Of a stretch of 64,000 nt of DNA, positions 2,617 through 53,000 are shown one piece after another. Below the pieces are notes generated by a model, which ran no database searches, was not told the DNA's origin, and was given only the letters and a program-made list of their open reading frames with translations. The stretch's first letter is position 1, and the number at the start of each line of letters is the position of its first letter. Source of the stretch: Limnomonas spitsbergensis (Eukaryota; Chlorophyta; Chlorophyceae; Chlamydomonadales); NCBI GenBank assembly GCA_037349105.1, contig JAYJMM010000124.1, positions 6,990,001 to 7,054,000 on the forward strand, in the 5' to 3' direction. Position numbers and translations under genes: made by a program.

Positions 2617-4192
<1,576 letters not shown>

Positions 4193-26066: not shown

Positions 26067-29000
26067 ATGAAAAATGCGGAGCTGCATAAGTACAGGGGCA
26101 AGCTCTTGGACCCGCTTCTTTCGATCCAGGGCCAGCCATCCTCGTCCAAGCTGGCACAGTTCCTGATCCAGGTGCTGCTGGCACTCCTGTGGCGCCCCCT
26201 GATGACCATGTACAGCCCCCTGGGCAAGCTCCTGGCTGGCTACATCTGGGCTGGGAAGTGGACCTTCATGTTGACCCTGCATGTGCAAAGGACTTTCATG
26301 CGCCTGGTCGGCTGGCTGTCCTGCAGCCCATACATCAAAGATGCCAGACAGCCACGCCACCGCCACCCCCTGTTCATCGTCCGCTTGTTTCGCTTCTACG
26401 TCGCACCCTTGGACATCAAACGCTGGCACCTGCTGCTCGGTGAGGGTGCCTGTCTAGAGGGTAGAGGGCACGGATCTAAGACATATGCATGGTCAGTTGG
26501 TCACTGGTCAGGGGCTGCATTGACTGAACTGACCAAAGGGGTTTAATTGATCCGCAGTGTGAGCTTACCCTCATATCAACAACATTCGGTCACTGTGGGC
26601 TCTTAGTAGCTCCATCCATCCCTACCGGTCCACCTCTTCCCTCGCAGCCACCACGGCTGCTGCAGCACTGGTCTCATCCCTGGTGCGGCGAATCACACAG
26701 AACTTTGATGGAAGCTCCCATCGCAAACGAGAAGTCCAGCGCAAGATGGCAACTGCCTCAGATTACGAGCAGGCGAGCAAAAAGCCAGAGCCATGGGGCG
26801 TGAGGCTTTGATGTTTGCATGTTTGTTCCCTGCTTTTCCCCACACCTGTTTGTTGAGCGGATCTTCAAGGATTGATCCCACTTACGATGGGACAGCAAGT
26901 ATCTTTAAGCTGCTTCTGACATGCTCTCTCTTGTGCGCAGTGGCAAAGCCTGGCTCAGCAAGTTGAGAAGGAGGACAGACCAGTGGCGCACTCGCCGGAA
27001 AGTGCATCATCGGGGTGGATGGACTGGGGTCAGCGCCTGATCGGGACACGCGCCAGCGCACCGACACCAGTCACTGGAGCATTGGGTTGCGGTTTGAACC
27101 CAGTTACTCAAACTCCAAATCATCCTTTGCCTGACATCCCGACAGACGGCCTAGCCCGCACCTATGACCGCAAACTGCTTGCTGAGAAGATCGCACACCT
27201 GCGGCGCGTGAGAGAGACGGGCAACGTCAAGGAGATCATGTTTGCCCTGCGGCTGGACCTTGTGCGCAACATTGCCAACCTGGCCAAAAGGTGGGAAAGA
27301 TGAGAGGCGACGGTTTGGCCCTTATTAAGGTTGTTCGCCCCCCCTGTATATGTATGAAGGAGTGCCTCCCCCCCCCTGTCCAAGCTGTTCTACCTGACCT
27401 GCCTCTTGCTGCCCCGCCTTGCTCCCCTGCAGCAAGATGTATGACAAGTACTCGTTCATCCCAGAGCCCATCCAAGAGTACATTCAAGAGATCAAGGAAC
27501 ATCTCTTCCGGGTAGAAATTCAGAATGTGCCTGATCCAGATGTCCAGACGATTGACAGTCCATGGGGCATTTGGAGGCGCAGGGAACCTGTGCCAGCAAA
27601 TGCTGAACTTCGCATCAGACCTAGTGCCATTGCATCAGAGTGTCAACTCCCGTCCAGTCCAAAGCTCACAATGTGATACATAAAGCAGCTGATCTCCCCC
27701 CCTCCCCTTCTGCAGATACGTGATGCGCACCCCTCTGAGCTCCCCATCACTGAGAAGCTGTCGTTCTTCAGAGAGGTACGACACACATTCGGCAAAACAG
27801 CGCTGCTGCTCAGTGGTGGCGGGAGCCTTGGGACATTTCACGTGGTAAGCATGGGCATGAGATAGCATGCACGGACACGAAACAGCGTGTGTAGGCTCAT
27901 GGAATTGTGTTATTTGCTCCTTTCCATGGTATGGTTCGTTATGAACATTTGAAAGCTGTTGCGTTTGTTTGAGTGAAACTCCTTCCCTTCATGCCCCCCT
28001 TGCCCCTCACCTCATCCTTCAGGGTGTTGCAAAAGCTTTGTTTGAGAAACACATGCTCCCGAGGGTGCTGGCCGGCAGCAGCGCGGGCTCGATTGGTGAG
28101 AGGGCTCGTATGGCCTTAAAAGCTGAGCATGCTGGGTGGGGGATGACTGAATGAGTAGGGGAGGAGGGCAGTGACAAGACACTGGGAGGACAAATTGCTC
28201 ACAAAGGATTCGGGTGTTTGCTTGGCCCATTGTTTTCAAATATCTTACAGATCTTTGCTGTTGCTCTTGATCCATAACAAGACCTCTACCCTTCCAATCT
28301 TCCTCGTAACAGTATCAGCCATGATTGCCACGCGCAACGACTCTGAGCTGGAGGAGATGTTTGCGTCCATCCACCAGATTGACATGATGTTCTTTAACAA
28401 CAACTCAACGGCGCAGCTTGTCATGCACGTGATCAAGAAAGGCAGCCTGCAGGTGTGGGGGGCAGTGAAAGGCTGGGATTTTGGGAGCTGGGCAGGAGCA
28501 GTGGGGGGCAGTGAAAGGCTGGGCATATGGTAGCTGGGTAGAAGCAGTGGGGGCAGCATGCAATCCTTGGTTACATACAATATTTTAATGAATGAAAACG
28601 TGGGTGTTTATCTGTTTGGAATGGAATTGTATGTAACTAACGTGAGCTGGCTGTGCTGAGATGAGGGTGAGCACTACATGGCGTTTGTTAGCATGTGGGT
28701 GACAACAAGCATCATGATCTTTCTGTAGTGTGCGAGACTGCATGTTGCTGTTTCGGATCCCAGTGGTGATCCTTCTTCCAGAGCCAAGTGCTTGAGTTGG
28801 CCTGAGCATGAACCCTATCCAGGTGGACCTCCCCTGACCCCTTTCACCGCCTGTAATCCCTGCCTGCCAGGACATGGCCTTCATGATCAAGAGGTTGCGC
28901 TCGCTGCTGGGGGACCTCACCTTCCTGGAGGCATATGAGCGGACAGGTGGGGAGAATGGTGGGTAGGGGGGGGGGACCTCACCTTCCTGGAGGCATATGA

Positions 29001-32000
29001 GCGGACAGGTGGGGAGAATGGTGGGGTAGGGGGGGGGGACCTTACCTTCCTGGAGGCATATGAGCGGACAGGTGGGGACAATGGTGGGGTAGGGGGGGGG
29101 GGACCTCACCTTCCTGGAGGCATATGAGCGGACAGGTGGGGAGAATGGTGGGGTAGGGGGGGGGGGACCTCACCTTTCTGGAGGCATATGAGCGGACAGG
29201 TGGGGAGAATGGTGGGGTAGGGGGGGGGGATCTCACCTTCCTGGAGGCATATGAACGGACAGGTGGGGAGAATGGTGGGATTTGGGGGGGGACCTTACCT
29301 TCCTGGAGGCATATGAGCGGACAGGTGGGGAGAATGGTGGGGTAGGGGGGGGGGGACCTCACCTTCCTGGAGGCATATGAGCGGACAGGTGGCGAGAATG
29401 GTGGGGTAGGGGGGGGGGACCTTACCTTCCTGGAGGCATATGAGCGGACAGGTGGGGACAATGGTGGGGTGGGGGGGGGGGGGACCTTACCTTCCAGGAG
29501 GCATATGAGCGGACAGGTGGGGAGAATGGTGGGGTAGGGGGTTGGGACCTCACCTTCCTGGAGGCATATGAGCGGACAGGTGGGGAGAATGGTGGGGTAG
29601 GGGGGGGGGACCTCACCTTCCTGGAGGCATATGAGCGGACAGGTGGCGAGAATGGTGGGGTAGGGGGGGGACCTCACCTTCCTGGAGGCATATGAGCGGA
29701 CAGGTGGGGAGAATGGTGGGGTAGGGGGGGGGGACCTCACCTTCCTGGAGGCATATGAGCGGACAGGTGGCGAGAATGGTGGGCTAGGGGGGGGGGACCT
29801 TACCTTCCTGGAGGCATATGAGCGGACAGGTGGGGACAATGGTGGGGTAGGGGGGGGGGGGACCTCACCTTTCTGGAGGCATATGAGCGGACAGGTGGGG
29901 AGAATGGTGGGGTTTGGGGGGGGGGGGGACCTCACCTTCCTGGAGGCATATGAGCGGAAAGGTGGCGAGAATGGTGGGGTAGGGGGGGGGGGGACCTCAC
30001 CTTCCTGGAGGCATATGAGCGGACAGGTGGGGAGAATGGTGGGGTAGGGGGGGGGGACCTCACCTTCCTGGAGGCATATGAGCGGACAGGTGGGGAGAAT
30101 GGTGGGGTAGGGGGGGGGGGACCTCACCTTCCTGGAGGCATATGAGTGGACAGGTGGGGAGAATGGTGGGGTAGAGGGGGGGGACCTCACCTTCCTGGAG
30201 GCATATGAGCGGACAGGTGGGGAGAATGGTGGGGTAAGGGGGGGGGACCTCACCTTCCTGGAGGCATATGAGCGGACAGGTGGGGAGAATGGTGGGGTAG
30301 AGGGGGGGACCTCACCTTCCTGGAGGCATATGAGCGGACAGGTGGGGAGAATGGTGGGGTACGGGGGGGGGGACCTCACCTTCCTGGAGGCATATGAGCG
30401 GACAGGTGGGGACAATGGTGGGGTAGGGGGGGGGGGGACCTCACCTTCCTGGAGGCATATGAGCGGACAGGTGGGGAGAATGGTGAGGTAGGGGGGGGGG
30501 GACCTCACCTTCCTGGAGGCATATGAGCGGACAGGTGGGGAGAATGGTGGGGTCTGGGGGGGGGGGACCTCACCTTCCTGGAGGCATATGAGCGGACAGG
30601 TGGGGAGAATGGTGGGGTAGGGGGGGGGGGACCTCACCTTCCTGGAGGCATATGAACGGACAGGTGGGGAGAATGGTGAGGTTTGGGGGGGGGACCTTAC
30701 CTTCCTGGAGGCATATGAGCGGACAAGTGGGGAGAATGGTGGGGTAGGGGGGGGGGGACCTCACCTTCCTGGAGGCATATGAGCAGACAGGTGGGGAGAA
30801 TGGTGGGGTGGGGGGGGGGGGGACCTCACCTTCCTGGAGGCATATGAGCGGACAGGTGGCGATAATGGTGGGGTCTGGGGGGGGGGGACCTCACCTTCCT
30901 GGAGGCATATGAGCGGACAGGTGGGGAGAATGGTGGGGTAGGGGGGGGGGACCTCACCTTCCTGGAGGCATATGAGCGGACAGGTGGGGAGAATGGTGGG
31001 GTAGGGGGGGGACCTCACCTTCCTGGAGGCATATGAGCGGACAGGTGGGGAGAATGGTGGGGTAGGGGGGGGGGACCTCACCTTTTTGGAGGCATATGAG
31101 CGGACAGGTGGGGAGAATGGTGGGGTAGGGGGGGGGGACCTCACCTTCCTGGAGGCATATGAGCGGACAGGTGGGGAGAATGGTGGGGTGGGGGGGGGGT
31201 ACCTCACCTTCCTGGAGGCATATGAGCGGACAGGTGGGGACAATGGTGGGGTAGGGGGGGGGGGGACCTCACCTTCCTGGAGGCATATGAGCGGACAGGT
31301 GGGGAGAATGGTGGGGTAGGGGGGGGGGGACCTTACCTTCCTGGAGGCATATGAACGGACAGGTGGGGAGAATGGTGTGGTTTGGGGGGGGGACCTTACC
31401 TTCCTGGAGGCATATGAGCGGACAGGTGGGGAGAATGGTGGGGTAGGGGGGGGGGGGCCTCACTATCCTGAAGGCATATGAGCGGACAGGTGGGGAGAAT
31501 GGCGGGGTAGGGGGGGGACCGCACTTTTCTGGAGGCATATGAGCGGACAGGTGGGGAGAATGGTGGGGTAGGGGGGGGGACCTCACCTTCCTGGAGGCAT
31601 ATGAGCGGACAGGTGGGGAGAATGGTGGGGTAGGGGGGGGGGACCTCACTATCTTGAAGGCATATGAGCGGACAGGTGGCGAGAATGGTGGGGTAGGGGG
31701 GGGGACCTTACCTTCCTGGATGCATATGAGCGGACAGGTGGGGAGAATGGTGGGGTAGGGGGGGGGGGACCTCACCTTCCTGGAGGCATATGAGCGGAAA
31801 GGTGGCGAGAATGGTGGGGTCTGGGGGGGGGGACCTCACCTTCCTGGAGGCATATGAGCGGACAGGTGGGGAGAATGGTGGGGTAGGGGGGGGGGACCTC
31901 ACCTTCCTGGAGGCATATGAGCGGACAGGTGGGGAGAATGGTGGGGTAGGGGGGGGGGACCTCACCTTCCTGGAGGCATATGAGCGGACAGGTGGGGAGA

Positions 32001-35000
32001 ATGGTGAGGTAGGGGGGGGGGGGACCTCACCTTTCTGGAGGCATATGAGCGGACAGGTGGGGAGAATGGTGGGGTACGGGGGGGGGGACCTCACCTTCCT
32101 GGAGGCATATGAGCGGACAGGTGGGGAGAATGGTGGGGTAGGGGGGGGGGGACCTCACCTTCCTGGAGGCATATGAGCGGACAGGTGGCGAGGTGGTGTA
32201 GGGGGGGGGGACCTTACCTTCCTGGAGGCATATGAGCGGACAGGTGGGGACAATGGTGGGGTAGGGGGGGGGGGACCTCACCTTCCTGGAGGCATATGAG
32301 CGGACAGGTGGGGAGAATGGTGGGGTCTGGGGGGGGGGACCTCACCTTCCTGGAGGCATATGAGCGGACAGGTGGGGAGAATGGTGGGGTAGGGGGGGGG
32401 GGACCTCACCTTCCTGGAGGCATATGAGCGGACAGGTGGGGAGAATGGTGGGGTAAGGGGGGGGGACCTCACCTTCCTGGAGGCATATGAGCGGACAGGT
32501 GGGGAGAATGGTGAGGTTTGGGGGGGGACCTCACCTTCCTGGAGGCATATGAGCGGACAGGTGGGGAGAATGGTGGGGTAGGGGGGGGGGACCTCACTAT
32601 CTTGAAGGCATATGAGCGGACAGGTGGGGAGAATGGTGGGGTAGGGGGGGGGGACCTCACCTTCCTGGAGGCATATGAACGGACAGGTGGGGAGAATGGT
32701 GAGGTTTGGGGGGGGGACCTTACCTTTCTGGAGGCATATGAGCGGACAGGTGGGGAGAATGGTGGGGTAGGGGGGGGGGGACCTCACCTTCCTGGAGGCA
32801 TATGATCAGACAGGTGGGGAGAATGGTGGGGTGGGGGGGGGGGGGACCTCACCTTCCTGGAGGCATATGAGCGGACAGGTGGCGATAATGGTGGGGTAGG
32901 GGGGGGGGGACCTCACCTTCCTGGAGGCATATGAGCGGACAGGTGGGGAGAATGGTGGGGTAGGGGGGGGGGACCTCACCTTCCTGGAGGCATATGAGCG
33001 GACAGGTGGGGAGAATGGTGGGGTAGGGGGGGGACCTCACCTTCCTGGTGGCATATGAGCGGACAGGTGGGGAGAATGGTGGGGTAGGGGGGGGGGGACC
33101 TCACCTTTCTGGAGGCATATGAGCGGACAGGTGGGGAGAATGGTGAGGTTTGGGGGGGGGGACCTCACCTTCCTGGAGGCATATGAGCGGACAGGTGGGG
33201 AGAATGGTGGGGTAGGGGGGGGGGGGGACCTCACCTTCCTGGAGGCATATGAGCGGACAGGTGGGGAGAATGGTGGGGTAGGGGGGGGGGGACCTTACCT
33301 TCCTGGAGGCATATGAACGGACAGGTGGGGAGAATGGTGAGGTTTGGGGGGGGGACCTTACCTTCCTGGAGGCATATGAGCGGACAGGTGGGGAGAATGG
33401 TGGGGTAGGGGGGGGGGGGACCTCACCTTCCTGGAGGCATATGAGCGGACAGGTGGGGAGAACGGTGGGGTAGGGGGGGGGGACCTCACCTTCCTGGAGG
33501 CATATGAGCGGACAGGTGGGGAGAATGGTGGGGTAGGGGGGGGACCTCACCTTCCTGGAGGCATATGAGCGGACAGGTGGGGAGAATGGTGGGGTAGGGG
33601 GGGGGGGACCTCACCTTTCTGGAGGCATATGAGCGGACAGGTGGGGAGAATAGTGGGGTAGGGGGGGGGGGACCTCACTATCTTGAAGGCATATGAGCGG
33701 ACAGGTGGGGAGAATGGTGGGGTAGGGGGGGGGACCTTACCTTCCTGGATGCATATGAGCGGACAGGTGGGGAGAATGGTGGGGTAGGGGGGGGGGGACC
33801 TCACCTTCCTGGAGGCATATGAGCGGACAGGTGGGGAGAATGGTGGGGTGGGGGGGGGGGGGACCTCACCTTCCTGGAGGCATATGAGCGGACAGGTGGG
33901 GAGAATGGTGGGGTAGGGGGGGGGGACCTCACCTTCCTGGAGGCATATGAGCGGACAGGTGGGGAGAATGGTGGGGTAGGGGGGGGGACCTCACCTTCCT
34001 GGAGGCATATGAGCGGACAGGTGGGGAGAATGGTGGGGTAGGGGGGGGACCGCACTTTTCTGGAGGCATATGAGCGGACAGGTGGGGAGAATGGTGGGGT
34101 ACGGGGGGGGGGACCTCACCTTCCTGGAGGCATATGAGCGGACAGGTGGGGAGAATAGTGGGGTAGGGGGGGGGGACCTCACCTTCCTGGAGGCATATGA
34201 GCGGACAGGTGGCGAGAATGGTGGGGTAGGGGGGGGGGACCTTACCTTCCTGGAGGCATATGAGCGGACAGGTGGGGAGAATGGTGGGGTAGGGGGGGGG
34301 GACCTCACCTTCCTGGAGGCATATGAGCGGACAGGTGGGGAGAATGGTGGGGTAGGGGGGGGACCTCACCTTCCTGGAGGCATATGAGCGGACAGGTGGG
34401 GAGAATGGTGGGGTAGGGGGGGGGGACCTCACCTTCCTGGAGGCATATGAGCGGACAGGTGGGGAGAATGGTGGGGTAGGGGGGGGGACCTTACCTTCCT
34501 GGAGGCATATGAGCGGACAGGTGGCGAGAATGGTGGGGTAGGGGGGGGGGACCTTACCTTCCTGGAGGCATATGAGCGGACAGGTGGGGACAATGGTGGG
34601 GTAGGGGGGGGGGGACCTCACCTTCCTGGAGGCATATGAGCGGACAGGTGGGGAGAATGGTGGGGTCTGGGGGGGGGGACCTCACCTTCCTGGAGGCATA
34701 TGAGCGGACAGGTGGCGAGAATGGTGGGGTAGGGGGGGGGGACCTTACCTTCCTGGAGGCATATGAGCGGACAGGTGGGGACAATGGTGGGGTAGGGGGG
34801 GGGGGGACCTCACCTTCCTGGAGGCATATGAGCGGACAGGTGGGGAGAATGGTGGGGTCTGGGGGGGGGGGACCTCACCTTCCTGGAGGCATATGAGCGG
34901 ACAGGTGGGGAGAATGGTGGGGTAGGGGGGGGGGACCTCACCTTCCTGGAGGCATATGAGCGGACAGGTGGGGAGAATGGTGGGGTAGGGGGGGGGGACC

Positions 35001-38000
35001 TCACCTTCCTGGAGGCATATGAGCGGACAGGTGGGGAGAATGGTGGGGTCTGGGGGGGGGGGACCTCACCTTCCTGGAGGCATATGAGCGGACAGGTGGG
35101 GAGAATGGTGGGGTAGGGGGGGGACCTCACCTTCCTGGAGGCATATGAGCGGACAGGTGGGGAGAATGGTGGGGTAGGGGGGGGGGGACCTCACCTTTCT
35201 GGAGGCATATGAGCGGACAGGTGGGGAGAATGGTGGGGTAGGGGGGGGGGGACCTCACTATCTTGAAGGCATATGAGCGGACAGGTGGGGAGAATGGTGG
35301 GGTAGGGGGGGGGGACCTTACCTTCCTGGATGCATATGAGCGGACAGGTGGGGAGAATGGTGGGGTAGGGGGGGGGGGACCTCACCTTCCTGGAGGCATA
35401 TGAGCGGACAGGTGGGGAGAATGGTGGGGTGGGGGGGGGGGGACCTCACCTTCCTGGAGGCATATGAGCGGACAGGTGGGGAGAATGGTGGGGTAGGGGG
35501 GGGGGGACCTCACCTTCCTGGAGGCATATGAGCGGACAGGTGGGGAGAATGGTGGGGTAGGGGGGGGGACCTCACCTTCCTGGAGGCATATGAGCGGACA
35601 GGTGGGGAGAATGGTGGGGTAGGGGGGGGACCGCACTTTTCTGGAGGCATATGAGCGGACAGGTGGGGAGAATGGTGGGGTACGGGGGGGGGGACCTCAC
35701 CTTCCTGGAGGCATATGAGCGGACAGGTGGGGAGAATAGTGGGGTAGGGGGGGGGGACCTCACCTTCCTGGAGGCATATGAGCGGACAGGTGGCGAGAAT
35801 GGTGGGGTAGGGGGGGGGGACCTTACCTTCCTGGAGGCATATGAGCGGACAGGTGGGGAGAATGGTGGGGTAGGGGGGGGGGACCTCACCTTCCTGGAGG
35901 CATATGAGCGGACAGGTGGGGAGAATGGTGGGGTAGGGGGGGGACCTCACCTTCCTGGAGGCATATGAGCGGACAGGTGGGGAGAATGGTGGGGTAGGGG
36001 GGGGGGACCTCACCTTCCTGGAGGCATATGAGCGGACAGGTGGGGAGAATGGTGGGGTAGGGGGGGGGACCTTACCTTCCTGGAGGCATATGAGCGGACA
36101 GGTGGCGAGAATGGTGGGGTAGGGGGGGGGGACCTTACCTTCCTGGAGGCATATGAGCGGACAGGTGGGGACAATGGTGGGGTAGGGGGGGGGGGGACCT
36201 CACCTTCCTGGAGGCATATGAGCGGACAGGTGGGGAGAATGGTGGGGTCTGGGGGGGGGGACCTCACCTTCCTGGAGGCATATGAGCGGACAGGTGGCGA
36301 GAATGGTGGGGTAGGGGGGGGGGACCTTACCTTCCTGGAGGCATATGAGCGGACAGGTGGGGACAATGGTGGGGTAGGGGGGGGGGGACCTCACCTTCCT
36401 GGAGGCATATGAGCGGACAGGTGGGGAGAATGGTGGGGTCTGGGGGGGGGGGGACCTCACCTTCCTGGAGGCATATGAGCGGACAGGTGGGGAGAATGGT
36501 GGGGTAGGGGGGGGGGACCTCACCTTCCTGGAGGCATATGAGCGGACAGGTGGGGAGAATGGTGGGGTAGGGGGGGGGGACCTCACCTTCCTGGAGGCAT
36601 ATGAGCGGACAGGTGGGGAGAATGGTGGGGTCTGGGGGGGGGGGACCTCACCTTCCTGGAGGCATATGAGCGGACAGGTGGGGAGAATGGTGGGGTAGGG
36701 GGGGGGGGACCTTACCTTCCTGGTGGCATATGAGCGGACAGGTGGGGAGAATGGTGGGGTAGGGGGGGGGGACCTCACCTTCCTGGAGGCATATGAGCGG
36801 ACAGGTGGGGAGAATGGTGGGGTAGGGGGGGGACCTCACCTTCCTGGAGGCATATGAGCGGACAGGTGGGGAGAATGGTGGGGTAGGGGGGGGGGACCTC
36901 ACCTTCCTGGAGGCATATGAGCGGACAGGTGGGGAGAATGGTGGGGTAGGGGGGGGGACCTTACCTTCCTGGAGGCATATGAGCGGACAGGTGGCGAGAA
37001 TGGTGGGGTAGGGGGGGGGGACCTTACCTTCCTGGAGGCATATGAGCGGACAGGTGGGGACAATGGTGGGGTAGGGGGGGGGGGACCTCACCTTCCTGGA
37101 GGCATATGAGCGGACAGGTGGGGAGAATGGTGGGGTCTGGGGGGGGGGGACCTCACCTTCCTGGAGGCATATGAGCGGACAGGTGGGGAGAATAGTGGGG
37201 TAGGGGGGGGACCTCACCTTCCTGGAGGCATATGAGCGGACAGGTGGGGAGAATGGTGGGGTAGGGGGGGGGGACCTCACCTTCCTGGAGGCATATGAGC
37301 GGACAGGTGGGGAGAATGGTGGGGTAGGGGGGGGGGACCTTACCTTCCTGGAGGCATATGAGCGGACAGGTGGGGAGAATGGTGGGGTAGGGGGGGGGGA
37401 CCTTACCTTCCTGGAGGCATATGAGCGGACAGGTGGGGAGAATGGTGGGGTAGGGGGGGGGGGACCTCACCTTCCTGGAGGCATATGAGCGGACAGGTGG
37501 GGAGAATGGTGGGGTAGGGGGGGGGGACCTCACCTTCCTGGAGGCATATGAGCGGACAGGTGGGGAGAATGGTGAGGTAGGGGGGGGGGGGACCTCACCT
37601 TTCTGGAGGCATATGAGCGGACAGGTGGGGAGAATGGTGGGGTACGGGGGGGGGGACCTCACCTTCCTGGAGGCATATGAGCGGACAGGTGGGGAGAATA
37701 GTGGGGTAGGGGGGGGGGGGACCTCACCTTCCTGGAGGCATATGAGCGGACAGGTGGGGAGAATGGTGGGGTAGGGGGGGGGGACCTCACCTTCCTGGAG
37801 GCATATGAGCGGACAGGTGGGGAGAATGGTGAGGTAGGGGGGGGGGGACCTCACCTTTCTGGAGGCATATGAGCGGACAGGTGGGGAGAATGGTGGGGTA
37901 CGGGGGGGGGGACCTCACCTTCCTGGAGGCATATGAGCGGACAGGTGGGGAGAATAGTGGGGTAGGGGGGGGGGGACCTCACCTTCCTGGAGGCATATGA

Positions 38001-41000
38001 GCGGACAGGTGGCGAGAATGGTGGGGTAGGGGGGGGGGACCTCACCTTCCTGGAGGCATATGAGCGGACAGGTGGGGAGAATGGTGGGGTCTGGGGGGGG
38101 GGGACCTCACCTTCCTGGAGGCATATGAGCGGACAGGTGGGGAGAATGGTGGGGTAGGGGGGGGGGACCTCACCTTCCTGGAGGCATATGAGCGGACAGG
38201 TGGGGAGAATAGTGGGGTAGGGGGGGGGGACCTCACCTTCCTGGAGGCATATGAGCGGACAGGTGGCGAGAATGGTGGGGTAGGGGGGGGGGACCTTACG
38301 TTCCTGGAGGCATATGAGCGGACAGGTGGGGACAATGGTGGGGTAGGGGGGGGGGGACCTCACCTTCCTGGAGGCATATGAGCGGACAGGTGGGGAGAAT
38401 GGTGGGGTCTGGGGGGGGGGGACCTCACCTTCCTGGAGGCATATGAGCGGACAGGTGGGGAGAATGGTGGGGTAGGGGGGGGGGACCTCACCTTCCTGGA
38501 GGCATATGAGCGGACAGGTGGGGAGAATGGTGGGGTAGGGGGGGGGGACCTCACCTTCCTGGAGGCATATGAGCGGACAGGTGGGGAGAATGGTGGGGTC
38601 TGGGGGGGGGGGACCTCACCTTCCTGGAGGCATATGAGCGGACAGGTGGGGAGAATGGTGGGGTAGGGGGGGGGGACCTTACCTTCCTGGAGGCATATGA
38701 GCGGACAGGTGGGGAGAATGGTGGGGTAGGGGGGGGGGACCTCACCTTCCTGGAGGCATATGAGCGGACAGGTGGGGAGAATGGTGGGGTAGGGGGGGGA
38801 CCTCACCTTCCTGGAGGCATATGAGCGGACAGGTGGGGAGAATGGTGGGGTAGGGGGGGGGGACCTCACCTTCCTGGAGGCATATGAGCGGACAGGTGGG
38901 GAGAATGGTGGGGTAGGGGGGGGGACCTTACCTTCCTGGAGGCATATGAGCGGACAGGTGGCAAGAATGGTGGGGTAGGGGGGGGGGACCTTACCTTCCT
39001 GGAGGCATATGAGCGGACAGGTGGGGACAATGGTGGGGTAGGGGGGGGGGGACCTCACCTTCCTGGAGGCATATGAGCGGACAGGTGGGGAGAATGGTGG
39101 GGTCTGGGGGGGGGGGACCTCACCTTCCTGGAGGCATATGAGCGGACAGGTGGGGAGAATAGTGGGGTAGGGGGGGGGGACCTCACCTTCCTGGAGGCAT
39201 ATGAGCGGACAGGTGGGGAGAATGGTGGGGTAGGGGGGGGGGGACCTCACCTTCCTGGAGGCATATGAGCGGACAGGTGGGGAGAATGGTGAGGTAGGGG
39301 GGGGGGGACCTCACCTTTCTGGAGGCATATGAGCGGACAGGTGGGGAGAATGGTGGGGTACGGGGGGGGGGACCTCACCTTCCTGGAGGCATATGAGCGG
39401 ACAGGTGGGGAGAATAGTGGGGTAGGGGGGGGGGGACCTCACCTTCCTGGAGGCATATGAGCGGACAGGTGGCGAGAATGGTGGGGTAGGGGGGGGGGAC
39501 CTTACCTTCCTGGAGGCATATGAGCGGACAGGTGGGGACAATGGTGGGGTAGGGGGGGGGGGGACCTCACCTTCCTGGAGGCATATGAGCGGACAGGTGG
39601 GGAGAATGGTGGGGTCTGGGGGGGGGGGACCTCACCTTCCTGGAGGCATATGAGCGGACAGGTGGGGAGAATGGTGGGGTAGGGGGGGGGGACCTCACCT
39701 TCCTGGAGGCATATGAGCGGACAGGTGGGGAGAATGGTGGGGTAGGGGGGGGGGACCTCACCTTCCTGGAGGCATATGAGCGGACAGGTGGGGAGAATGG
39801 TGGGGTCTGGGGGGGGGGGACCTCACCTTCCTGGAGGCATATGAGCGGACAGGTGGGGAGAATGGTGGGGTAGGGGGGGGGGACCTTACCTTCCTGGAGG
39901 CATATGAGCGGACAGGTGGGGAGAATGGTGGGGTAGGGGGGGGACCTCACCTTCCTGGAGGCATATGAGCGGACAGGTGGGGAGAATGGTGGGGTAGGGG
40001 GGGGGGACCTCACCTTCCTGGAGGCATATGAGCGGACAGGTGGGGAGAATGGTGGGGTAGGGGGGGGACCTCACCTTCCTGGAGGCATATGAGCGGACAG
40101 GTGGGGAGAATGGTGGGGTAGGGGGGGGGGACCTCACCTTCCTGGAGGCATATGAGCGGACAGGTGGGGAGAATGGTGGGGTAGGGGGGGGGACCTTACC
40201 TTCCTGGAGGCATATGAGCGGACAGGTGGCGAGAATGGTGGGGTAGGGGGGGGGGACCTTACCTTCCTGGAGGCATATGAGCGGACAGGTGGGGACAATG
40301 GTGGGGTAAGGGGGGGGGGACCTCACCTTCCTGGAGGCATATGAGCGGACAGGTGGGGAGAATGGTGGGGTCTGGGGGGGGGGGACCTCACCTTCCTGGA
40401 GGCATATGAGCGGACAGGTGGGGAGAATAGTGGGGTAGGGGGGGGGGACCTCACCTTCCTGGAGGCATATGAGCGGACAGGTGGGGAGAATGGTGGGGTA
40501 GGGGGGGGGGACCTCACCTTCCTGGAGGCATATGAGCGGACAGGTGGCGATAATGGTGGGGTAGGGGGTTGGGACCTTACCTTCCTGGAGGCATATGAGC
40601 GGACAGGTGGGGAGAATGGTGGGGTAGGGGGGGGGGACCTCACCTTCCTGGAGGCATATGAGCGGACAGGTGGGGAGAATGGTGGGGTAGGGGGGGACCT
40701 CACCTTCCTGGAGGCATATGAGCGGACAGGTGGCGAGAATGGTGGGGTAGGGGGGGGGGACCTTACCTTCCTGGAGGCATATGAGCGGACAGGTGGGGAG
40801 AATGGTGGGGTAGGGGGGGGGGGGACCTCACCTTCCTGGAGGCATATGAGCGGACAGGTGGGGAGAATGGTGGGGTAGGGGGGGGGGACCTTACCTTCCT
40901 GGAGGCATATGAGCGGACAGGTGGGGAGAATGGTGGGGTAGGGGGGGGGACCTCACCTTCCTGGAGGCATATGAGCGGACAGGTGGGGAGAATGGTGGGG

Positions 41001-44000
41001 TAGGGGGGGGGACCTCACCTTCCTGGAGGCATATGAGCGGACAGGTGGGGAGAATGGTGGGGTAGGGGGGGGGGACCTTACCTTCCTGGAGGCATATGAA
41101 CGGACAGGTGGGGAGAATGGTGAGGTTTGGGGGGGGGACCTTACCTTCCTGGAGGCATATGAGCGGACAGGTGGGGAGAATGGTGGGGTAGGGGGGGGGG
41201 GACCTCACCTTCCTGGAGGCATATGAGCAGACAGGTGGGGAGAATGGTGGGGTGGGGGGGGGGGGACCTCACCTTCCTGGAGGCATATGAGCGGACAGGT
41301 GGGGAGAATGGTGGGGTAGGGGGGGGGGACCTCACCTTCCTGGAGGCATATGAGCGGACAGGTGGGGAGAATGGTGGGGTAGAGGGGGGGGACCTCACCT
41401 TCCTGGAGGCATATGAGCGGACAGGTGGGGAGAATGGTGGGGTAAGGGGGGGGGGACCTCACCTTCCTGGAGGCATATGAGCGGACAGGTGGGGAGAATG
41501 GTGGGGTAGAGGGGGGGACCTCACCTTCCTGGAGGCATATGAGCGGACAGGTGGGGAGAATGGTGGGGTAGGGGGGGGGGGACCTCACCTTCCTGGAGGC
41601 ATATGAGCGGACAGGTGGGGAGAATAGTGGGGTAGGGGGGGGGGACCTCACCTTCCTGGAGGCATATGAGCGGACAGGTGGGGAGAATGGTGGGGTAGGG
41701 GGGGGGGACCTCACCTTCCTGGAGGCATATGAGCGGACAGGTGGCGATAATGGTGGGGTAGGGGGTTGGGACCTTACCTTCCTGGAGGCATATGAGCGGA
41801 CAGGTGGGGAGAATGGTGGGGTAGGGGGGGGGGACCTCACCTTCCTGGAGGCATATGAGCGGACAGGTGGGGAGAATGGTGGGGTAGGGGGGGACCTCAC
41901 CTTCCTGGAGGCATATGAGCGGACAGGTGGCGAGAATGGTGGGGTAGGGGGGGGGGACCTTACCTTCCTGGAGGCATATGAGCGGACAGGTGGGGAGAAT
42001 GGTGGGGTAGGGGGGGGGGGACCTCACCTTCCTGGAGGCATATGAGCGGACAGGTGGGGAGAATGGTGGGGTAGGGGGGGGGGACCTTACCTTCCTGGAG
42101 GCATATGAGCGGACAGGTGGGGAGAATGGTGGGGTAGGGGGGGGGACCTCACCTTCCTGGAGGCATATGAGCGGACAGGTGGGGAGAATGGTGGGGTAGG
42201 GGGGGGGACCTCACCTTCCTGGAGGCATATGAGCGGACAGGTGGGGAGAATGGTGGGGTAGGGGGGGGGGACCTTACCTTCCTGGAGGCATATGAACGGA
42301 CAGGTGGGGAGAATGGTGAGGTTTGGGGGGGGGACCTTACCTTCCTGGAGGCATATGAGCGGACAGGTGGGGAGAATGGTGGGGTAGGGGGGGGGGACCT
42401 CACCTTCCTTGAGGCATATGAGCAGACAGGTGGGGAGAATGGTGGGGGGGGGGGGGGGGGACCTCACCTTCCTGGAGGCATATGAGCGGACAGGTGGGGA
42501 GAATGGTGGGGTAGGGGGGGGGGACCTCACCTTCCTGGAGGCATATGAGCGGACAGGTGGGGAGAATGGTGGGGTAGAGGGGGGGGACCTCACCTTCCTG
42601 GAGGCATATGAGCGGACAGGTGGGGAGAATGGTGGGGTAAGGGGGGGGGGACCTCACCTTCCTGGAGGCATATGAGCGGACAGGTGGGGAGAATGGTGGG
42701 GTAGAGGGGGGGACCTCACCTTCCTGGAGGCATATGAGCGGACAGGTGGGGAGAATGGTGGGGTAGGGGGGGGGGGACCTCACCTTCCTGGAGGCATATG
42801 AGCGGACAGGTGGGGAGAATGGTGGGGTAGGGGGTTGGGACCTTACTTTCCTGGAGGCATATGAGCGGACAGGTGGGGAGAATGGTGGGGTAGGGGGGGG
42901 GGACCTCACCTTCCTGGAGGCGTATGAGCGGACAGGTGGGGAGAATGGTGGGGTAGGGGGGGGGGAACTTACCTTCCTGGAGGCATATGAGCGGACAGGT
43001 GGGGAGAATGGTGGGGTAGGGGGGGGGGACCTCACCTTCCTGGAGGCATATGAGCGGACAGGTGGGGAGAATGGTGGGGTAGGGGGGGGACCTCACCTTC
43101 CTGGAGGCATATGAGCGGACAGGTGGGGAGAATGGTGGGGTAGGGGGGGGGGCCTCACCTTCCTGGAGGCATATGAGCGGACAGGTGGCGAGAATGGTGG
43201 GGTAGGGGGGGGGGACCTTACCTTCCTGGAGGCATATGAGCGGACAGGTGGGGAGAATGGTGGGGTAGGGGGGGGGGGACCTCACCTTCCTGGAGGCATA
43301 TGAGCGGACAGGTGGGGAGAATGGTGGGGTAGGGGGGGGGGACCTTACCTTCCTGGAGGCATATGAGCGGACAGGTGGGGAGAATGGTGGGGTAGGGGGG
43401 GGGGACCTCACCTTCCTGGAGGCATATGAGCGGACAGGTGGGGAGAATGGTGGGGTGGGGGGGGGGGACCTCACCTTCCTGGAGGCATATGAGCGGACAG
43501 GTGGCGATAATGGTGGGGTAGGGGGGGGGGGACCTAGCTTTCCTGGAGGCATATGAGCGGACAGGTGGCGAGAATGGTGGGGTAGGGGGGGGGGGGACCT
43601 CACCTTCCTGGAGGCATATGAGCGGACAGGTGGGGAGAATGGTGGGGTAGGGGGGGGACCTCACCTTCCTGGAGGCATATGAGCGGACAGGTGGGGAGAA
43701 TGGTGGGGTAGGGGGGGGGGACCTCACCTTCCTGGAGGCATATGAGCGGACAGGTGGGGAGAATGGTGGGGTAGGGGGGGGACCTCACCTTCCTGGAGGC
43801 ATATGAGCGGACAGGTGGGGAGAATGGTGGGGTAGGGGGGGGGGCATCACCTTCCTGGAGGCATATGAGCGGACAGGTGGCGAGAATGGTGGGGTAGGGT
43901 GGGGGACCTTACCTTCCTGGAGGCATATGAGCGGACAGGTGGGGAGAATGGTGGGGTAGGGGGGGGGGGACCTCACCTTCCTGGAGGCATATGAGCGGAC

Positions 44001-47000
44001 AGGTGGGGAGAATGGTGAGGTTTTTGGGGGGGACCTTACCTTCCTGGAGGCATATGAGCGGACAGGTGGGGAGAATGGTGGGGTAGGGGGGGGGGGACCT
44101 CACCTTCCTGGAGGCATATGAGCGGACAGGTGGGGAGAATGGTGGGGTGGGGGGGGGGGACCTCACCTTCCTGGAGGCATATGAGCGGACAGGTGGCGAT
44201 AATGGTGGGGTAGGGGGGGGGGGACCTAGCTTTCCTGGAGGCATATGAGCGGACAGGTGGCGAGAATGGTGGGGTAGGGGGTTGGGACCTCACCTTCCTG
44301 GAGGCATATGAGCGGACAGGTGGGGAGAATGGTGGGGTAGGGGGGGGGGGACCTTACCTTCCTGGAGGCATATGAGCGGAAAGGTGGGGAGAATGGTGGG
44401 GTAGGGGGGGGGGACCTCACCTTCCTGGAGGCATATGAGCGGACAGGTGGCGAGAATGGTGGGGTAGGGGGGGGGGACCTTACCTTCCTGGAGGCATATG
44501 AGCGGACAGGTGGTGACAATGGTGGGGTCTGGGGGGGGGGGACCTCACCTTCCTGGAGGCATATGAGCGGACAGGTGGGGAGAATGGTGGGGTAGGGGGG
44601 GAGGGGGACCTCACCTTCCTGGAGGCATATGAGCGGACAGGTGGGGAGAATGGTGGGGTAGGGGGGGGGGACCTCACCTTCCTGGAGGCATATGAGCGGA
44701 CAGGTGGGGAGAATGGTGGGGTAGGGGGTTGGGACCTCACCTTCCTGGAGGCATATGAGCGGACAGGTGGGGAGAATGGTGGGGTAGGGGGGGGGGACCT
44801 CACCTTCCTGGAGGCATATGAGCGGACAGGTGGGGAGAATGGTGGGGTAGAGGGGGGGGACCTCACCTTCCTGGAGGCATATGAGCGGACAGGTGGGGAG
44901 AATGGTGGGGTAAGGGGGGGGGACCTCACCTTCCTGGAGGCATATGAGCGGACAGGTGGGGAGAATGGTGGGGTAGAGGGGGGGACCTCACCTTCCTGGA
45001 GGCATATGAGCGGACAGGTGGGGAGAATGGTGGGGTAGGGGGGGGGGACCTCACCTTCCTGGAGGCATATGAGCGGACAGGTGGGGAGAATGGTGGGGTA
45101 GGGGGTTGGGACCTTACTTTCCTGGAGGCATATGAGCGGACAGGTGGGGAGAATGGTGGGGTAGGGGGGGGGGACCTCACCTTCCTGGAGGCATATGAGC
45201 GGACAGGTGGGGAGAATGGTGGGGTAGGGGGGGACCTCACCTTCCTGGAGGCATATGAGCGGACAGGTGGGGAGAATGGTGGGGTAGGGGGGGGGGACCT
45301 CACCTTCCTGGAGGCATATGAGCGGACAGGTGGGGAGAATGGTGAGGTTTGGGGGGGGACCTTACCTTCCTGGAGGCATATGAGCGGACAGGTGGGGAGA
45401 ATGGTGGGGTAGGGGGGGGGGACCTCACCTTCCTGGAGGCATATGAGCGGACAGGTGGGGAGAATGGTGGGGTAGGGGGGGGGGACCTCACCTTCCTGGA
45501 GGCATATGAGCGGACAGGTGGGGAGAATGGTGGGGTAGGGGGGGGGGAACTTACCTTCCTGGAGGCATATGAGCGGACAGGTGGGGAGAATGGTGGGGTA
45601 GGGGGGGGGGACCTCACCTTCCTGGAGGCATATGAGCGGACAGGTGGGGAGAATGGTGGGGTAGGGGGGGGACCTCACCTTCCTGGAGGCATATGAGCGG
45701 ACAGGTGGGGAGAATGGTGGGGTAGGGGGGGGGGCCTCACCTTCCTGGAGGCATATGAGCGGACAGGTGGCGAGAATGGTGGGGTAGGGGGGGGGGACCT
45801 TACCTTCCTGGAGGCATATGAGCGGACAGGTGGGGAGAATGGTGGGGTAGGGGGGGGGGGACCTCACCTTCCTGGAGGCATATGAGCGGACAGGTGGGGA
45901 GAATGGTGAGGTTTTTGGGGGGGACCTTACCTTCCTGGAGGCATATGAGCGGACAGGTGGGGAGAATGGTGGGGTAGGGGGGGGGGACCTCACCTTCCTG
46001 GAGGCATATGAGCGGACAGGTGGGGAGAATGGTGGGGTGGGGGGGGGGGACCTCACCTTCCTGAAGGCATATGAGCGGACAGGTGGCGATAATGGTGGGG
46101 TAGGGGGGGGGGGACCTAGCTTTCCTGGAGGCATATGAGCGGACAGGTGGCGAGAATGGTGGGGTAGGGGGGGGGGGGACCTCACCTTCCTGGAGGTATA
46201 TGAGCGGACAGGTGGGGAGAATGGTGGGGTAGGGGGGGGGGAACTTACCTTCCTGGAGGCATATGAGCGGACAGGTGGGGAGAATGGTGGGGTAGGGGGG
46301 GGGGACCTCACCTTCCTGGAGGCATATGAGCGGACAGGTGGGGAGAATGGTGGGGTAGGGGGGGGACCTCACCTTCCTGGAGGCATATGAGCGGACAGGT
46401 GGGGAGAATGGTGGGGTAGGGGGGGGGGCCTCACCTTCCTGGAGGCATATGAGCGGACAGGTGGCGAGAATGGTGGGGTAGGGGGGGGGGACCTTACCTT
46501 CCTGGAGGCATATGAGCGGACAGGTGGGGAGAATGGTGGGGTAGGGGGGGGGGACCTCACCTTCCTGGAGGCATATGAGCGGACAGGTGGGAGAATGGTG
46601 GGGTAGGGGGGGGGGGGGACCTCACCTTCCTGGAGGCATATGAGCGGACAGGTGGGGAGAATGGTGAGGTTTTTGGGGGGGACCTTACCTTCCTGGAGGC
46701 ATATGAGCGGACAGGTGGGGAGAATGGTGGGGTAGGGGGGGGGGGACCTCACCTTCCTGGAGGCATATGAGCGGACAGGTGGGGAGAATGGTGGGGTGGG
46801 GGGGGGGGACCTCACCTTCCTGGAGGCATATGAGCGGACAGGTGGGGAGAATGGTGGGGTAGGGGGGGGGGGACCTCACCTTCCTGGAGGCATATGAGCG
46901 GACAGGTGGGGAGAATGGTGGGGTAGGGGGGGGGGGGGACCTCACCTTCCTGGAGGCATATGAGCGGACATGGGCGAGAATGGTGGGGTAGGGGGGGGGG

Positions 47001-50000
47001 GACCTCACCTTCCTGGAGGCATATGAGCGGACAGGTGGGGAGAATGGTGGGGTAGGGGGGGGGGGACCTCACCTTCCTGGAGGCATATGAGCGGACAGGT
47101 GGCGAGAATGGTGGGGTAGGGGGGGGGGACCTTACCTTCCTGGAGGCATATGAGCGGACAGGTGGTGACAATGGTGGGGTAGGGGGGGGGGACCTCACCT
47201 TCCTGGAGGCATATGAGCGGACAGGTGGGGAAAATGGTGGGGTAGGGGGGGGGGGGACCTCACCTTCCTGGAGGCATATGAGCGGACAGGTGGGGAGAAT
47301 GGTGGGGTAGGGGGGGGGGACCTCACCTTCCTGGAGGCATATGAGCGGACAGGTGGGGAGAATGGTGGGGTAGGGGGTTGGGACCTCACCTTCCTGGAGG
47401 CATATGAGCGGACAGGTGGGGAGAATGGTGGGGTAGGGGGGGGGGACCTCACCTTCCTGGAGGCATATGAGCGGACAGGTGGGGAGAATGGTGGGGTAGA
47501 GGGGGGGGACCTCACCTTCCTGGAGGCATATGAGCGGACAGGTGGGGAGAATGGTGGGGTAAGGGGGGGGGACCTCACCTTCCTGGAGGCATATGAGCGG
47601 ACAGGTGGGGAGAATGGTGGGGTAGGGGGTTGGGACCTCACCTTCCTGGAGGCATATGAGCGGACAGGTGGGGAGAATGGTGGGGTAGGGGGGGGGGGAC
47701 CTCACCTTCCTGGAGGCATATGAGCGGACAGGTGGGGAGAATGGTGGGGTAGGGGGGGGGGACCTTACTTTCCTGGAGGCATATGAGCGGACAGGTGGGG
47801 AGAATGGTGGGGTAGGGGGGGGGGACCTCACCTTCCTGGAGGCATATGAGCGGACAGGTGGGGAGAATGGTGGGGTAGGGGGGGGGGGGGACCTCACCTT
47901 CCTGGAGGCATATGAGCGGACATGGGCGAGAATGGTGGGGTAGGGGGGGGGGGACCTCACCTTCCTGGAGGCATATGAGCGGACAGGTGGGGAGAATGGT
48001 GGGGTAGGGGGGGGGGGACCTCACCTTCCTGGAGGCATATGAGCGGACAGGTGGCGAGAATGGTGGGGTAGGGGGGGGGGACCTTACCTTCCTGGAGGCA
48101 TATGAGCGGACAGGTGGTGACAATGGTGGGGTAGGGGGGGGGGACCTCACCTTCCTGGAGGCATATGAGCGGACAGGTGGGGAAAATGGTGGGGTAGGGG
48201 GGGGGGGGACCTCACCTTCCTGGAGGCATATGAGCGGACAGGTGGGGAGAATGGTGGGGTAGGGGGGGGGGACCTCACCTTCCTGGAGGCATATGAGCGG
48301 ACAGGTGGGGAGAATGGTGGGGTAGGGGGTTGGGACCTCACCTTCCTGGAGGCATATGAGCGGACAGGTGGGGAGAATGGTGGGGTAGGGGGGGGGGACC
48401 TCACCTTCCTGGAGGCATATGAGCGGACAGGTGGGGAGAATGGTGGGGTAGAGGGGGGGGACCTCACCTTCCTGGAGGCATATGAGCGGACAGGTGGGGA
48501 GAATGGTGGGGTAAGGGGGGGGGACCTCACCTTCCTGGAGGCATATGAGCGGACAGGTGGGGAGAATGGTGGGGTAGAGGGGGGGACCTCACCTTCCTGG
48601 AGGCATATGAGCGGACAGGTGGGGAGAATGGTGGGGTAGGGGGGGGGGGACCTCACCTTCCTGGAGGCATATGAGCGGACAGGTGGGGAGAATGGTGGGG
48701 TGGGGGGGGGGGACCTCACCTTCCTGGAGGCATATGAGCGGACAGGTGGCGATAATGGTGGGGTAGGGGGGGGGGGGACCTAGCTTTCCTGGAGGCATAT
48801 GAGCGGACAGGTGGCGAGAATGGTGGGGTAGGGGGGGGGGGGGACCTCACCTTCCTGGAGGCATATGAGCGGACAGGTGGGGAGAATGGTGGGGTAGGGG
48901 GGGGGGACCTTACCTTCCTGGAGGCATATGAGCGGAAAGGTGGGGAGAATGGTGGGGTAGGGGGGGGGGGACCTCACCTTCCTGGAGGCATATGAGCGGA
49001 CAGGTGGCGAGAATGGTGGGGTAGGGGGGGGGGACCTTACCTTCCTGGAGGCATATGAGCGGACAGGTGGTGACAATGGTGGGGTAGGGGGGGGGGACCT
49101 CACCTTCCTGGAGGCATATGAGCGGACAGGTGGGGAGAATGGTGGGGTAGGGGGGGGGGGGACCTCACCTTCCTGGAGGCATATGAGCGGACAGGTGGGG
49201 AGAATGGTGGGGTAGGGGGTTGGGACCTCACCTTCCTGGAGGCATATGAGCGGACAGGTGGGGAGAATGGTGGGGTAGGGGGTTGGGACCTCACCTTCCT
49301 GGAGGCATATGAGCGGACAGGTGGGGAGAATGGTGGGGTAGGGGGGGGGGACCTCACCTTCCTGGAGGCATATGAGCGGACAGGTGGGGAGAATGGTGGG
49401 GTAGAGGGGGGGGACCTCACCTTCCTGGAGGCATATGAGCGGACAGGTGGGGAGAATGGTGGGGTAGAGGGGGGGACCTCACCTTCCTGGAGGCATATGA
49501 GCGGACAGGTGGGGAGAATGGTGGGGTAGGGGGGGGGGGACCTCACCTTCCTGGAGGCATATGAGCGGACAGGTGGGGAGAATGGTGGGGTAGGGGGTTG
49601 GGACCTTACTTTCCTGGAGGCATATGAGCGGACAGGTGGGGAGAATGGTGGGGTAGGGGGGGGGGACCTCACCTTCCTGGAGGCATATGAGCGGACAGGT
49701 GGGGAGAATGGTGGGGTAGGGGGGGACCTCACCTTCCTGGAGGCATATGAGCGGACAGGTGGGGAGAATGGTGGGGTAGGGGGGGGGGACCTCACCTTCC
49801 TGGAGGCATATGAGCGGACAGGTGGGGAGAATGGTGGGGTAGGGGGGGGGACCTCACCTTCCTGGAGGCATATGAGCGGACAGGTGGGGAGAATGGTGGG
49901 GTAGGGGGGGGGGGACCTCACCTTCCTGGAGGCATATGAGCGGACAGGTGGGGAGAATGGTGGGGTAAGGGGGGGGGACCTCACCTTCCTGGAGGCATAT

Positions 50001-53000
50001 GAGCGGACAGGTGGCGATAATGGTGGGGTAGGGGGGGGGGGGGACCTCACCTTCCTGGAGGCATATGAGCGGACAGGTGGGGAGAATGGTGGGGTAGGGG
50101 GGGGGGGACCTCACCTTCCTGGAGGCATATGAGCGGACAGGTGGGGAGAATGGTGGGGTAGGGGGGGGGGACCTCACCTTCCTGGAGGCATATGAGCGGA
50201 CAGGTGGGGAGAATGGTGGGGTAGGGGGGGGGACCTCACCGTCCTTGAGGCATATGAGCGGACAGGTGGGGAGAATGGTGGGGTAGGGGGGGGGGACCTC
50301 ACCTTCCTGGAGGCATATGAGCGGACAGGTTGGAGGCTGAAAGGGCTTGTGCTGCAGTGTGGAGAAGCTGTCTATGAGAATTCCTGTGATAGGAGATCCA
50401 TGGCCATTCAGATGACTAAGCATACCAATCCATGAGCTCATTGGTGACTTGTGGTGGCTGCGTGAACAGGTATCAGTCGATGCCGCTCAAGTCCAGTCAA
50501 AGCTGCTCATCCCCCTGATTGATCCTCCCCCTTCTCCTCCTTTGGCAGCTTCCTAGACATCCCTTCTGGCCCCCTCTCTTGTCCCAGGCCGTATCCTCAA
50601 CGTCACGGTCTGTCCAGCTGACACCAAGGAGCCGCCCCGACTCCTCAACTACCTCACCGCGCCTCAAGCTCTGATCTGGAGTGCGGTGGCGGCATCCTCG
50701 GCCTTCCCCGGCCTCTTCCCAGCTCAGGTGAAACTCACCGAGAGGGGTGCAGGGAGGGGCAAGGCAGTAGGCTGGGCAGAGAAATTTACTGAGAGGGGTG
50801 CAGGGTGGGGCAGGGCAGCAGGCTGGGCAGAGCGACTCACTGATGCAGGGCAAATCAGGGAGGGGCAGGGCAGCAGGCTGGGCCTCTCGTTTGACATCAT
50901 GTCAAGTGTTCACTGTGATTCGCTGTGTGCGCCATTGCACTCATATGCATTCTCCAGACCTTTGCCAAGCTGTTGGTCCCTTACACCCTTGCTCACATTA
51001 ACCCTGGGCTTCACACCTCCACCTCCCTACCTGTTTGTGACAGCACCTCCTAGCGCGCAACAGTGCAACGGGAGAAATCGTCACCTTCTCCGCCCAGCCC
51101 GGCGACAGTGGTGCAGAGAGGAGGTGGCAGGACGGGAGCCTGGAGATGGACTTGCCGACACAAGTGAGCGGAGGCTGTGCGTGCAGGGGACGGACCAGTG
51201 GATGCAAGTGTTTGGAGTCTGGGGCAGATAGGGACCAAGCTGGCCAATGGACACTGATCTCATCCATTTGACAAATCTTGGACTGCATCTGGGATCCGCT
51301 ACCTTGCTGCGATGCTCTGCTATAATTGGCGTGACGTGGCTGACGCTCATCCTGTATTCCCGCCTCTCCTTTCTCTGTGTGTTTCATCCACGGGGAAGTC
51401 AACCATGCCGCCTCAGTGTGTATTGTCATCGTTTACCCAGCTTCGAGCTTCTCATGCGCCCTAGGCCCTGAAATGTACACCTCTAGACTGCGAAGGCCTG
51501 ACCTCCCCCCCCCCTTCCTCTGAGCCGCTTTGTCCCTGTGCCCCTCCTGTCAGACCCTGGGGGAGATGTTCAACTGCAACCACTACTTGGTCTCTCAGAG
51601 CAACCCACACATTGTCCCGCTGCTCAACCTCAAGCGGGGGCTCAGCAGCAAGTGGTCCAAGATCCTGGAGTTGGAGCTCAAACACCGCTGCCAGGTGAGT
51701 AAAAAAGGAGAGGCTGAAAGAAGAGATTAAGTGATCTCTTGCGCGCGCGGGGGGGGGGGGGGAGTATGAGGGATGTGTCGCCAGCCACCAGCCTACCCAT
51801 TTGCCGGTTGGCCTGCCTCAGAAGTTACTTTCCTTTGTTTCTCTGCTACCCCCCGCAGATGCTCCAGCTGCTGCTGCCTGACTGGGTACCCTCCCGTTGG
51901 CTGTCCCTCTTCACTCAGCCGTGGGAAGGTGACGTGACCATGACACTCCCCATTGATGTGTGGGACCTAAACGTAGCCATCACCAACCAGACGAGAGAGG
52001 ACCTGCACAGACTGATCAAGGCAAGTGGAGGTGCTTAGGCTGCGTACCAACAGAGATATAAGAAGGAGCAGGGGCATGAGCAAAGAAGGGAGACCAGAGG
52101 CTGGCATGTCCCTCGGGAGGCAGTGACCATCATATCAATATGCATAAAGCAGTGCCCCCTTCATAGTCCATCCACATTCATTAAATGATTTGCATATTTC
52201 TTCATTGCGCCCCCGCTTGGTGCTTGCACTCATCCCCCCCCCCCTGTTCCAACTGGCCTTTAACTACTAGGTGGGTGAGGTGGCTGCCTGGGAGAAGCTG
52301 AGTGCCATCGAGTGCAACTGCACGATAGAGGCCACGCTAGACAGCTGCCTGGCCAAGGCGACCAACCAGGTAAGGCCTCTGGGGCATGTAACATAGATGA
52401 CTCAAGACAACATGCCGCTGCTCTGACGCATTTTCGGAACTGCGTTTTGCTTTGGAGAAGGACCCACTGTGCAGGCAGATGATCACACGCCTCCTGATAG
52501 CAGATGGCAAGATGAAGGCAAGATGATTATGACGCCTCCTGACGGCAGATGAGCGCGCTGCATCTTTAGCCTTCGTTTTTAGGCCAGAGCAGCCTGACAG
52601 GTCATGTATGAGGCCTCAATCTGGACGTAGCTGAGGTATAGCTGAACAGTTGCTGATTCATGAAACAAATAAACTGTATGCACCTGTTTCGATCCGCAGG
52701 TCAGAGGCAGGCCCGTGTCTCACATGCAGACTCGGATTCCATCATGGCTGCACATGCCTGCGCTCAGCATGCCCACGGTAGCATCCTGGGGTGGGAACCT
52801 CGCAGACATTATTAAGGTATGATGAAGCGGCAGGTGATTTCCAGTTCCAATTCAAGTTATTGTAGCATGCTTGGAGACCCATACGATGGACTGGTTGGAC
52901 ACCCTGCAGCTGCCTGAGAACAACTCCTGCCGGTTCCACCCATAGCAGGAGCAGGATGGCACGTGGGGCGACACGGAGGCTGAAGACGATGCGGATGATT

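Follow-up and report, generated by a model that had tools for sequence, protein, structure and literature searches.

In the green alga Limnomonas spitsbergensis, the boundary between exon 8 and intron 8 of a gene for an SDP1-type triacylglycerol lipase is repeated 339 times in tandem, forming a minisatellite of 21.4 kb between coding exons 8 and 9. The gene lies in a stretch of 64,000 nucleotides (assembly GCA_037349105.1, contig JAYJMM010000124.1, positions 6,990,001 to 7,054,000 of the forward strand), hereafter called the window; feature positions are those of the window and refer to its + strand unless stated otherwise. The array is probably a mirage-type minisatellite, so called after repeats described in amphioxus (see below), in which the native boundary was duplicated, expanded and tolerated while splicing would continue to use the first donor (donor 1).

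Structure, splice signals and origin of the array

Tandem Repeats Finder (TRF) reported a single array at positions 28909..50330 with a period of 63, 338.6 copies and 94% match. When units were anchored on the exonic core of the array, 339 copies were counted, unbroken and with spacings of 59-67 bp. A first-pass annotation of the window, made from the sequence without database searches, had described a head-to-tail array of about 340 copies ending at 50330, in agreement with both counts. According to the TRF consensus, the unit consists of ~38 nt from the end of exon 8 followed by ~25 nt of intron 8, with a leading G run that can be assigned partly to either side; the intronic share is as annotated previously (about 25 bases), and the coding share is slightly longer than the 34 bases given there. 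A 26-bp junction word had 291 matches, all on one strand, across the 260-Mb genome and 291 in the window alone, so that all its exact copies sit in the window. The last copy of the array carries a different, weak donor (ACAG|GTTGGAGG at 50329; 5.3 bits), with which the non-repeated rest of the intron begins (50329..50587, 259 nt), ending at the exon 9 acceptor CCCAG. As judged from the reading frame and homolog alignment, intron 8 would span 28947..50587 and thus measure 21,641 nt, which is ~27 times the mean intron length of 788 bp given in the published genome of this alga (PMC11228838).

The host gene was identified by scoring 7997 candidate proteins, 1083 of which matched; the best had 51% identity across the full query length, and algal SDP1 lipase names were present among the 120 matches listed. 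Coding exons 8 (28871..28946) and 9 (50588..50727) were placed by homolog alignment, and positions 28909-28946, ~38 nt at the end of exon 8, are the exonic part of unit 1. In an alignment with 12 homologs the two exons join without a gap. As the frame runs uninterrupted from exon 8 into exon 9, the array is intronic, which had been concluded earlier from the in-phase continuation of the protein in exon 9.

To score the splice sites, a donor matrix was built from 47 other donors of the SDP1 gene and of ten kinesin loci (see below), with left-out scores. The dinucleotides AG|GT are kept in 335 of the 338 full units, and CAG|GT is present at 331 of the 338 unit junctions. The common (median) array donor reached 11.3 bits, a value above those of 87% of the 47 other donors and attained by only one of 1276 GTs on the + strand of window positions 101-26000. 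As first annotated, the decoy donors point in the sense direction, and they are also strong; that genuine exonic sequence precedes each of them likewise proved correct, this sequence being the coding end of exon 8. Each of the 339 donors was then taken in turn as the end of an extended exon 8, which was joined to exon 9; in three units in which the donor was out of place, the next GGT was used. The frame was open for donor 1 only (ACAG|GTGGGG, 28947..28948), and read-through past this donor hit a stop in the first unit. When the ACAG of the unit was scored as an acceptor it yielded -2.2 bits, less than any of the 48 acceptors collected; of the 1923 AGs in window positions 101-26000, 49% reached this value or exceeded it. 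The acceptor of exon 8 lies 76 nt before donor 1.

The origin of the unit was traced with the help of a second SDP1 gene (L036, on contig C41), which has an intron 8 at the same position, 173 nt long and array-free, in which the junction (CGAACAG|GTGGGTGAAAGG) occurs once. Aligned to the first 50 nt of this intron, the intronic part of the unit scored 28, as compared to 17 or less for 47 other intron starts and 15 for the non-repeated remainder of intron 8 in the window. Because its intronic part matches the intron start of L036 best, the unit is the gene's native exon 8/intron 8 boundary in duplicated form and not a foreign insert. The earlier view that a splice junction was taken as a minisatellite unit and expanded is thereby upheld and extended to the intronic part, which is native too. 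The two genes share 85% nucleotide identity over exons 7-9. Over their 119 codons, nonsynonymous (dN) and synonymous (dS) divergence amounted to 0.064 and 0.645 by NG86 and to 0.062 and 1.233 by YN00; with dN far below dS, the pair diverged under constraint.

The 339 units comprise 102 distinct sequences. Ordered blocks of up to 11 units are repeated, with prominent lags of 15, 19 and 25 units, and together with the unit diversity this looks like array turnover. Of units 1-40, 42% have a sequence that occurs only once, as against 19%, 10%, 11% and 15% in the groups that follow (the last being units 299-338); the exon-proximal end thus looks older, since values elsewhere are 10-19%. Homogenised inner units next to less homogenised boundary units, a trait of mirages, were seen at the left edge of the array only. 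The 20 columns surrounding the donor (-16 to +4) are the least variable 20-column window among the 56 columns (9 variant alleles; column-permutation P=0.024), a window picked post hoc whose low variation may carry no meaning. G-quadruplex motifs numbered 108 on the sense strand and 0 on the antisense strand of the array, which is compatible with instability. No Rfam family was matched at gathering scores. The minus strand over the array (28585-50441) is open for long stretches of up to 531 codons; we take these frames as mechanical and not as a gene, and they are probably caused by a unit length near 63 bp.

Boundary-straddling repeats elsewhere in the genome

The first-pass annotation had proposed that the genome be scanned for other tandem units straddling exon-intron junctions. 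A search of the kinesin family gave 139 exon matches, 44 of which, in 10 loci chosen for clustered matches, were taken. Splice sites were placed by reading (35 donors, 36 acceptors); nine matches for donors and eight for acceptors were dropped because they offered no confident site, some being covered by repeats, and the counts below may therefore be low. A local junction copy was defined as a match to the 30-nt junction word with 24/30 identity within 2.5 kb. Such copies were found at 8 of the 35 kinesin donors and 3 of the 36 kinesin acceptors (9/48 and 3/48 when SDP1 is included), and two further donors and one further acceptor reached 23/30. The acceptor of L026 was taken at its first occurrence, away from the one beside the exon match, and the donor match of L029 (3427) lies well beyond the end of the exon match and is less sure. 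In intron 9 of the SDP1 paralog L036, the end of exon 9 and its donor are copied downstream of the gene's own donor, unlike in the window's gene. The array is thus not alone in this genome, and it seems that boundary-straddling minisatellites, known from amphioxus and humans, are present in a number of genes of this green alga as well. Two neighbouring kinesin paralogs illustrate the variation: L027 has an 89-bp x 8.9 array over an exon end and its GC donor (2063-2848, gene-forward), and L028 has a single GT donor.

Control positions were scored in the same way. Local copies were present at 3, 1 and 2 of 48 exon-interior positions. In the intron past the donor they were found in 6/48 (+20), 7/48 (+40), 9/45 (+60), 8/44 (+100) and 4-5 of 41 cases (+150 to +300), in the intron before the acceptor in 1-2 of 40-48, and in the exon past the acceptor in 2-4 of 48. 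From these counts, repeats extend across donors about as readily as they occupy intron starts and are few at acceptor ends and in exons. With offsets picked after the table was seen, the difference between donor and acceptor junctions (9/48 vs 3/48) was not significant (p=0.12), and that between donor junctions and exon interior at -50 (9/48 vs 2/48) was borderline (p=0.051). Nominal significance was reached when the acceptor-proximal intron at -50 (1/48) was compared with donor junctions (9/48; p=0.015) or with the donor-proximal intron at +60 (9/45; p=0.006).

The general repeat content was estimated from 24 other 10-kb stretches (240 kb), 14 of them on contig C124. Tandem repeats account for 21% of this sample, or 17% if one all-satellite stretch is left aside. 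The stretch L002 (C124:100001-110000) is filled entirely, over its positions 1-10000, by a 56-bp satellite that also shows a three-unit period of 168 bp. In L018 (C50:100001-110000), arrays of 159, 36 and 24 bp come back together, as one set, at intervals of 2.15-2.3 kb, which looks like the repetition of a larger unit.

Explanations for the array and relation to known repeats

We propose that ~38 nt of the coding end of exon 8 and ~25 nt of the intron start were duplicated in tandem (the exact path being our reconstruction), and that ordinary minisatellite turnover, including the duplication of unit blocks, would have led to 339 copies. The first copy would have stayed joined to exon 8 and the exon 8 acceptor, and for this reason the gene would tolerate the array. 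Since later copies have a strong donor without a convincing acceptor upstream, exon definition would confine splicing to donor 1, and all 21.6 kb would be spliced out as one intron. The array would accordingly be a tolerated by-product.

Several points weigh against this explanation or narrow its basis. Both the presumed use of donor 1 and the number of copies are read from the sequence of an assembly that was produced with Canu from PacBio continuous long reads (CLR), with short-read polishing and a haplotig-purging pipeline (PMC11228838). In an array of 21 kb, such an assembly could get the lengths of G runs and the variants among units wrong, and the exact copy number may be off. Alignment of the 259-nt remainder of intron 8 to the L036 intron scored 19 and did not rise above shuffled sequences (mean 16.7, maximum 25). 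The constraint deduced for the SDP1 pair concerns the divergence of the two genes and need not hold for the array-bearing gene since the rise of the array. In the kinesin and SDP1 sample, local copies were as frequent in the adjoining downstream intron as at donor junctions (9/45 vs 9/48; p=1.0). Among 108 minisatellite units with periods of 20-250, taken from the 24 stretches, donor-like motifs showed no clear excess over shuffles, with 0.102 vs 0.127 at 8 bits and 0.037 vs 0.025 at 11 bits. The idea that donors are preferred seeds of arrays is unsupported by these last two comparisons.

Binding of the U1 small nuclear ribonucleoprotein (U1 snRNP) protects transcripts from premature cleavage and polyadenylation, a function known as telescripting. 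Hundreds of U1 snRNP sites might in this manner guard the long-intron transcript, or else tune lipase expression, and the strong donors in 335 of 338 full units as well as the low variation around them would fit such a role. We nevertheless consider it very improbable: the low variation may be due to chance, gene conversion or polishing, the paralog manages with an array-free intron of 173 nt, and the long intron to be protected is the product of the array itself. It is very improbable, in the specific form, that the 338 extra donors are kept for U1 snRNP binding, be it for 3'-end protection or for control of lipase dosage, and that the array would represent a natural U1 platform derived from a captured junction. 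Recursive splicing is suggested by geometry only, in that each unit is a formal 63-nt GT...AG intron and unit-to-unit splicing would restore ACAG|GT (CAG|GT in 331 of 338 junctions), permitting stepwise removal. The acceptor-like site at -2.2 bits makes this route highly unlikely, and a recursive splice site array was rejected, as no functional-looking acceptor precedes the regenerated donors.

An artefact in which the assembler stretched a short real array would be in line with the use of CLR and with an assembly size (260 Mb) above the k-mer estimate (233 Mb; PMC11228838). We regard it as very doubtful, however, because the read L50 of 32.9 kb exceeds the length of the array (PMC11228838) and because, with 102 distinct units and a longest same-order identical run of 11, there are no long perfect copies. 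The probability that the array consists of copies of a mobile intron-forming element (introner) appears close to negligible. Although repeats are present at intron starts in several genes of this genome, the nine introns that have junction copies are little alike over their first 60 nt (the best two of 36 pairs scored 21 and 18, as compared to a maximum of 19 for shuffled sequences; best score involving SDP1 15), the 26-bp junction word is found nowhere else in the genome, and the unit matches the native boundary of its own gene. An introner origin was therefore rejected on sequence, no common sequence having been found at unrelated loci in the junction-word and intron-start comparisons.

The most probable explanation, a duplicated and tolerated native boundary, has precedents. 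The first-pass annotation was aware of no named class of elements built in this way. Tandem repeats over exon-intron boundaries have, however, been named 'mirages' in amphioxus and are also reported from humans (PMC3087553, PMC2812944). Mirages occur in amphioxus Adh3 (units of 10-72 bp) and in the globin genes BflGb6 and BflGb9 (150-160 bp); many units carry AG/GT signals, and globin data from reverse transcription PCR together with Adh3 data suggest that regular splicing is undisturbed (PMC3087553). The SDP1 array resembles them in that its units span the exon-intron boundary, are of minisatellite size (63 bp) and carry AG|GT in 335 of 338 cases. It differs by its 339 units over 21.4 kb, its donor-side position and its green-alga host; in BflGb6, six and three units are present in two haplotypes, and the acceptor side is repeated (PMC3087553). 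Human genes in segmental duplications possess internal tandem repeats at exon-intron boundaries, on average 30 bp x 4, that are tied to novel introns (PMC2812944). The SDP1 array is likewise a boundary minisatellite, but intron 8 is not new, because its position is shared with the paralog L036. Tandem duplication of an AG|GT segment can lead to intron gain, as in the case of potato RdRp (PMC4974935) and in the model of Rogers (cited in PMC3087553), and the duplicated AG|GT segment of the SDP1 array similarly makes formal GT...AG units. Gain of intron 8 in this way was rejected, given that L036 holds an intron at the same position, the comparison being with the paralog only. Introners are intron-borne repeats spread across many genes (PMC9860276); intron-borne repeats occur in several genes here as well, yet no sequence shared between the loci was seen in the comparisons above. 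The SDP1 array is thus a real and extreme case of a mirage-type repeat, new in its scale and host. Our literature search, limited in reach, found no splice-straddling minisatellite from an alga, and literature on Emiliania huxleyi introns and on L. spitsbergensis held nothing bearing on the array. The consulted parts of the L. spitsbergensis genome paper treat tandem repeats in the Methods and for the mitogenome, none of them as splice-site repeats (PMC11228838).

The locus amounts to a natural experiment in splice-site choice, with 339 near-identical consecutive donors, nearly all of them strong, of which the first alone yields the protein. Accurate splicing, if confirmed, would speak strongly for exon definition in a chlorophyte; any leakage would be readable copy by copy in long cDNA.

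Other features of the SDP1 gene

Coding exon 7 was placed at 28313..28452 by homolog alignment (acceptor gtaacag|TATCAGCC). TRF detected two short tandem arrays next to the neighbouring exons, each beginning 2 nt inside an intron: 46 bp x 2.2 at 28455..28553 in intron 7 (flank CTGCAG|GTGTGGGG) and 51 bp x 2.9 at 50730..50883 in intron 9 (flank CAGCTCAG|GTGAAACTC). In the junction-word scan, neither of them repeats the exon end or contains a junction copy. Two further SDP1 introns have apparent GC donors, at window position 26773 (TACGAGCAG|GCGAGC; reading against homologs) and at 52021 (CTGATCAAG|GCAAGT; by reading alone). Upstream of the gene, at 24807-24855, lies a perfect inverted repeat with arms of 20 nt (GGTGTGAATCCTGGCATCCA ... 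TGGATGCCAGGATTCACACC) and a loop of 9 nt.

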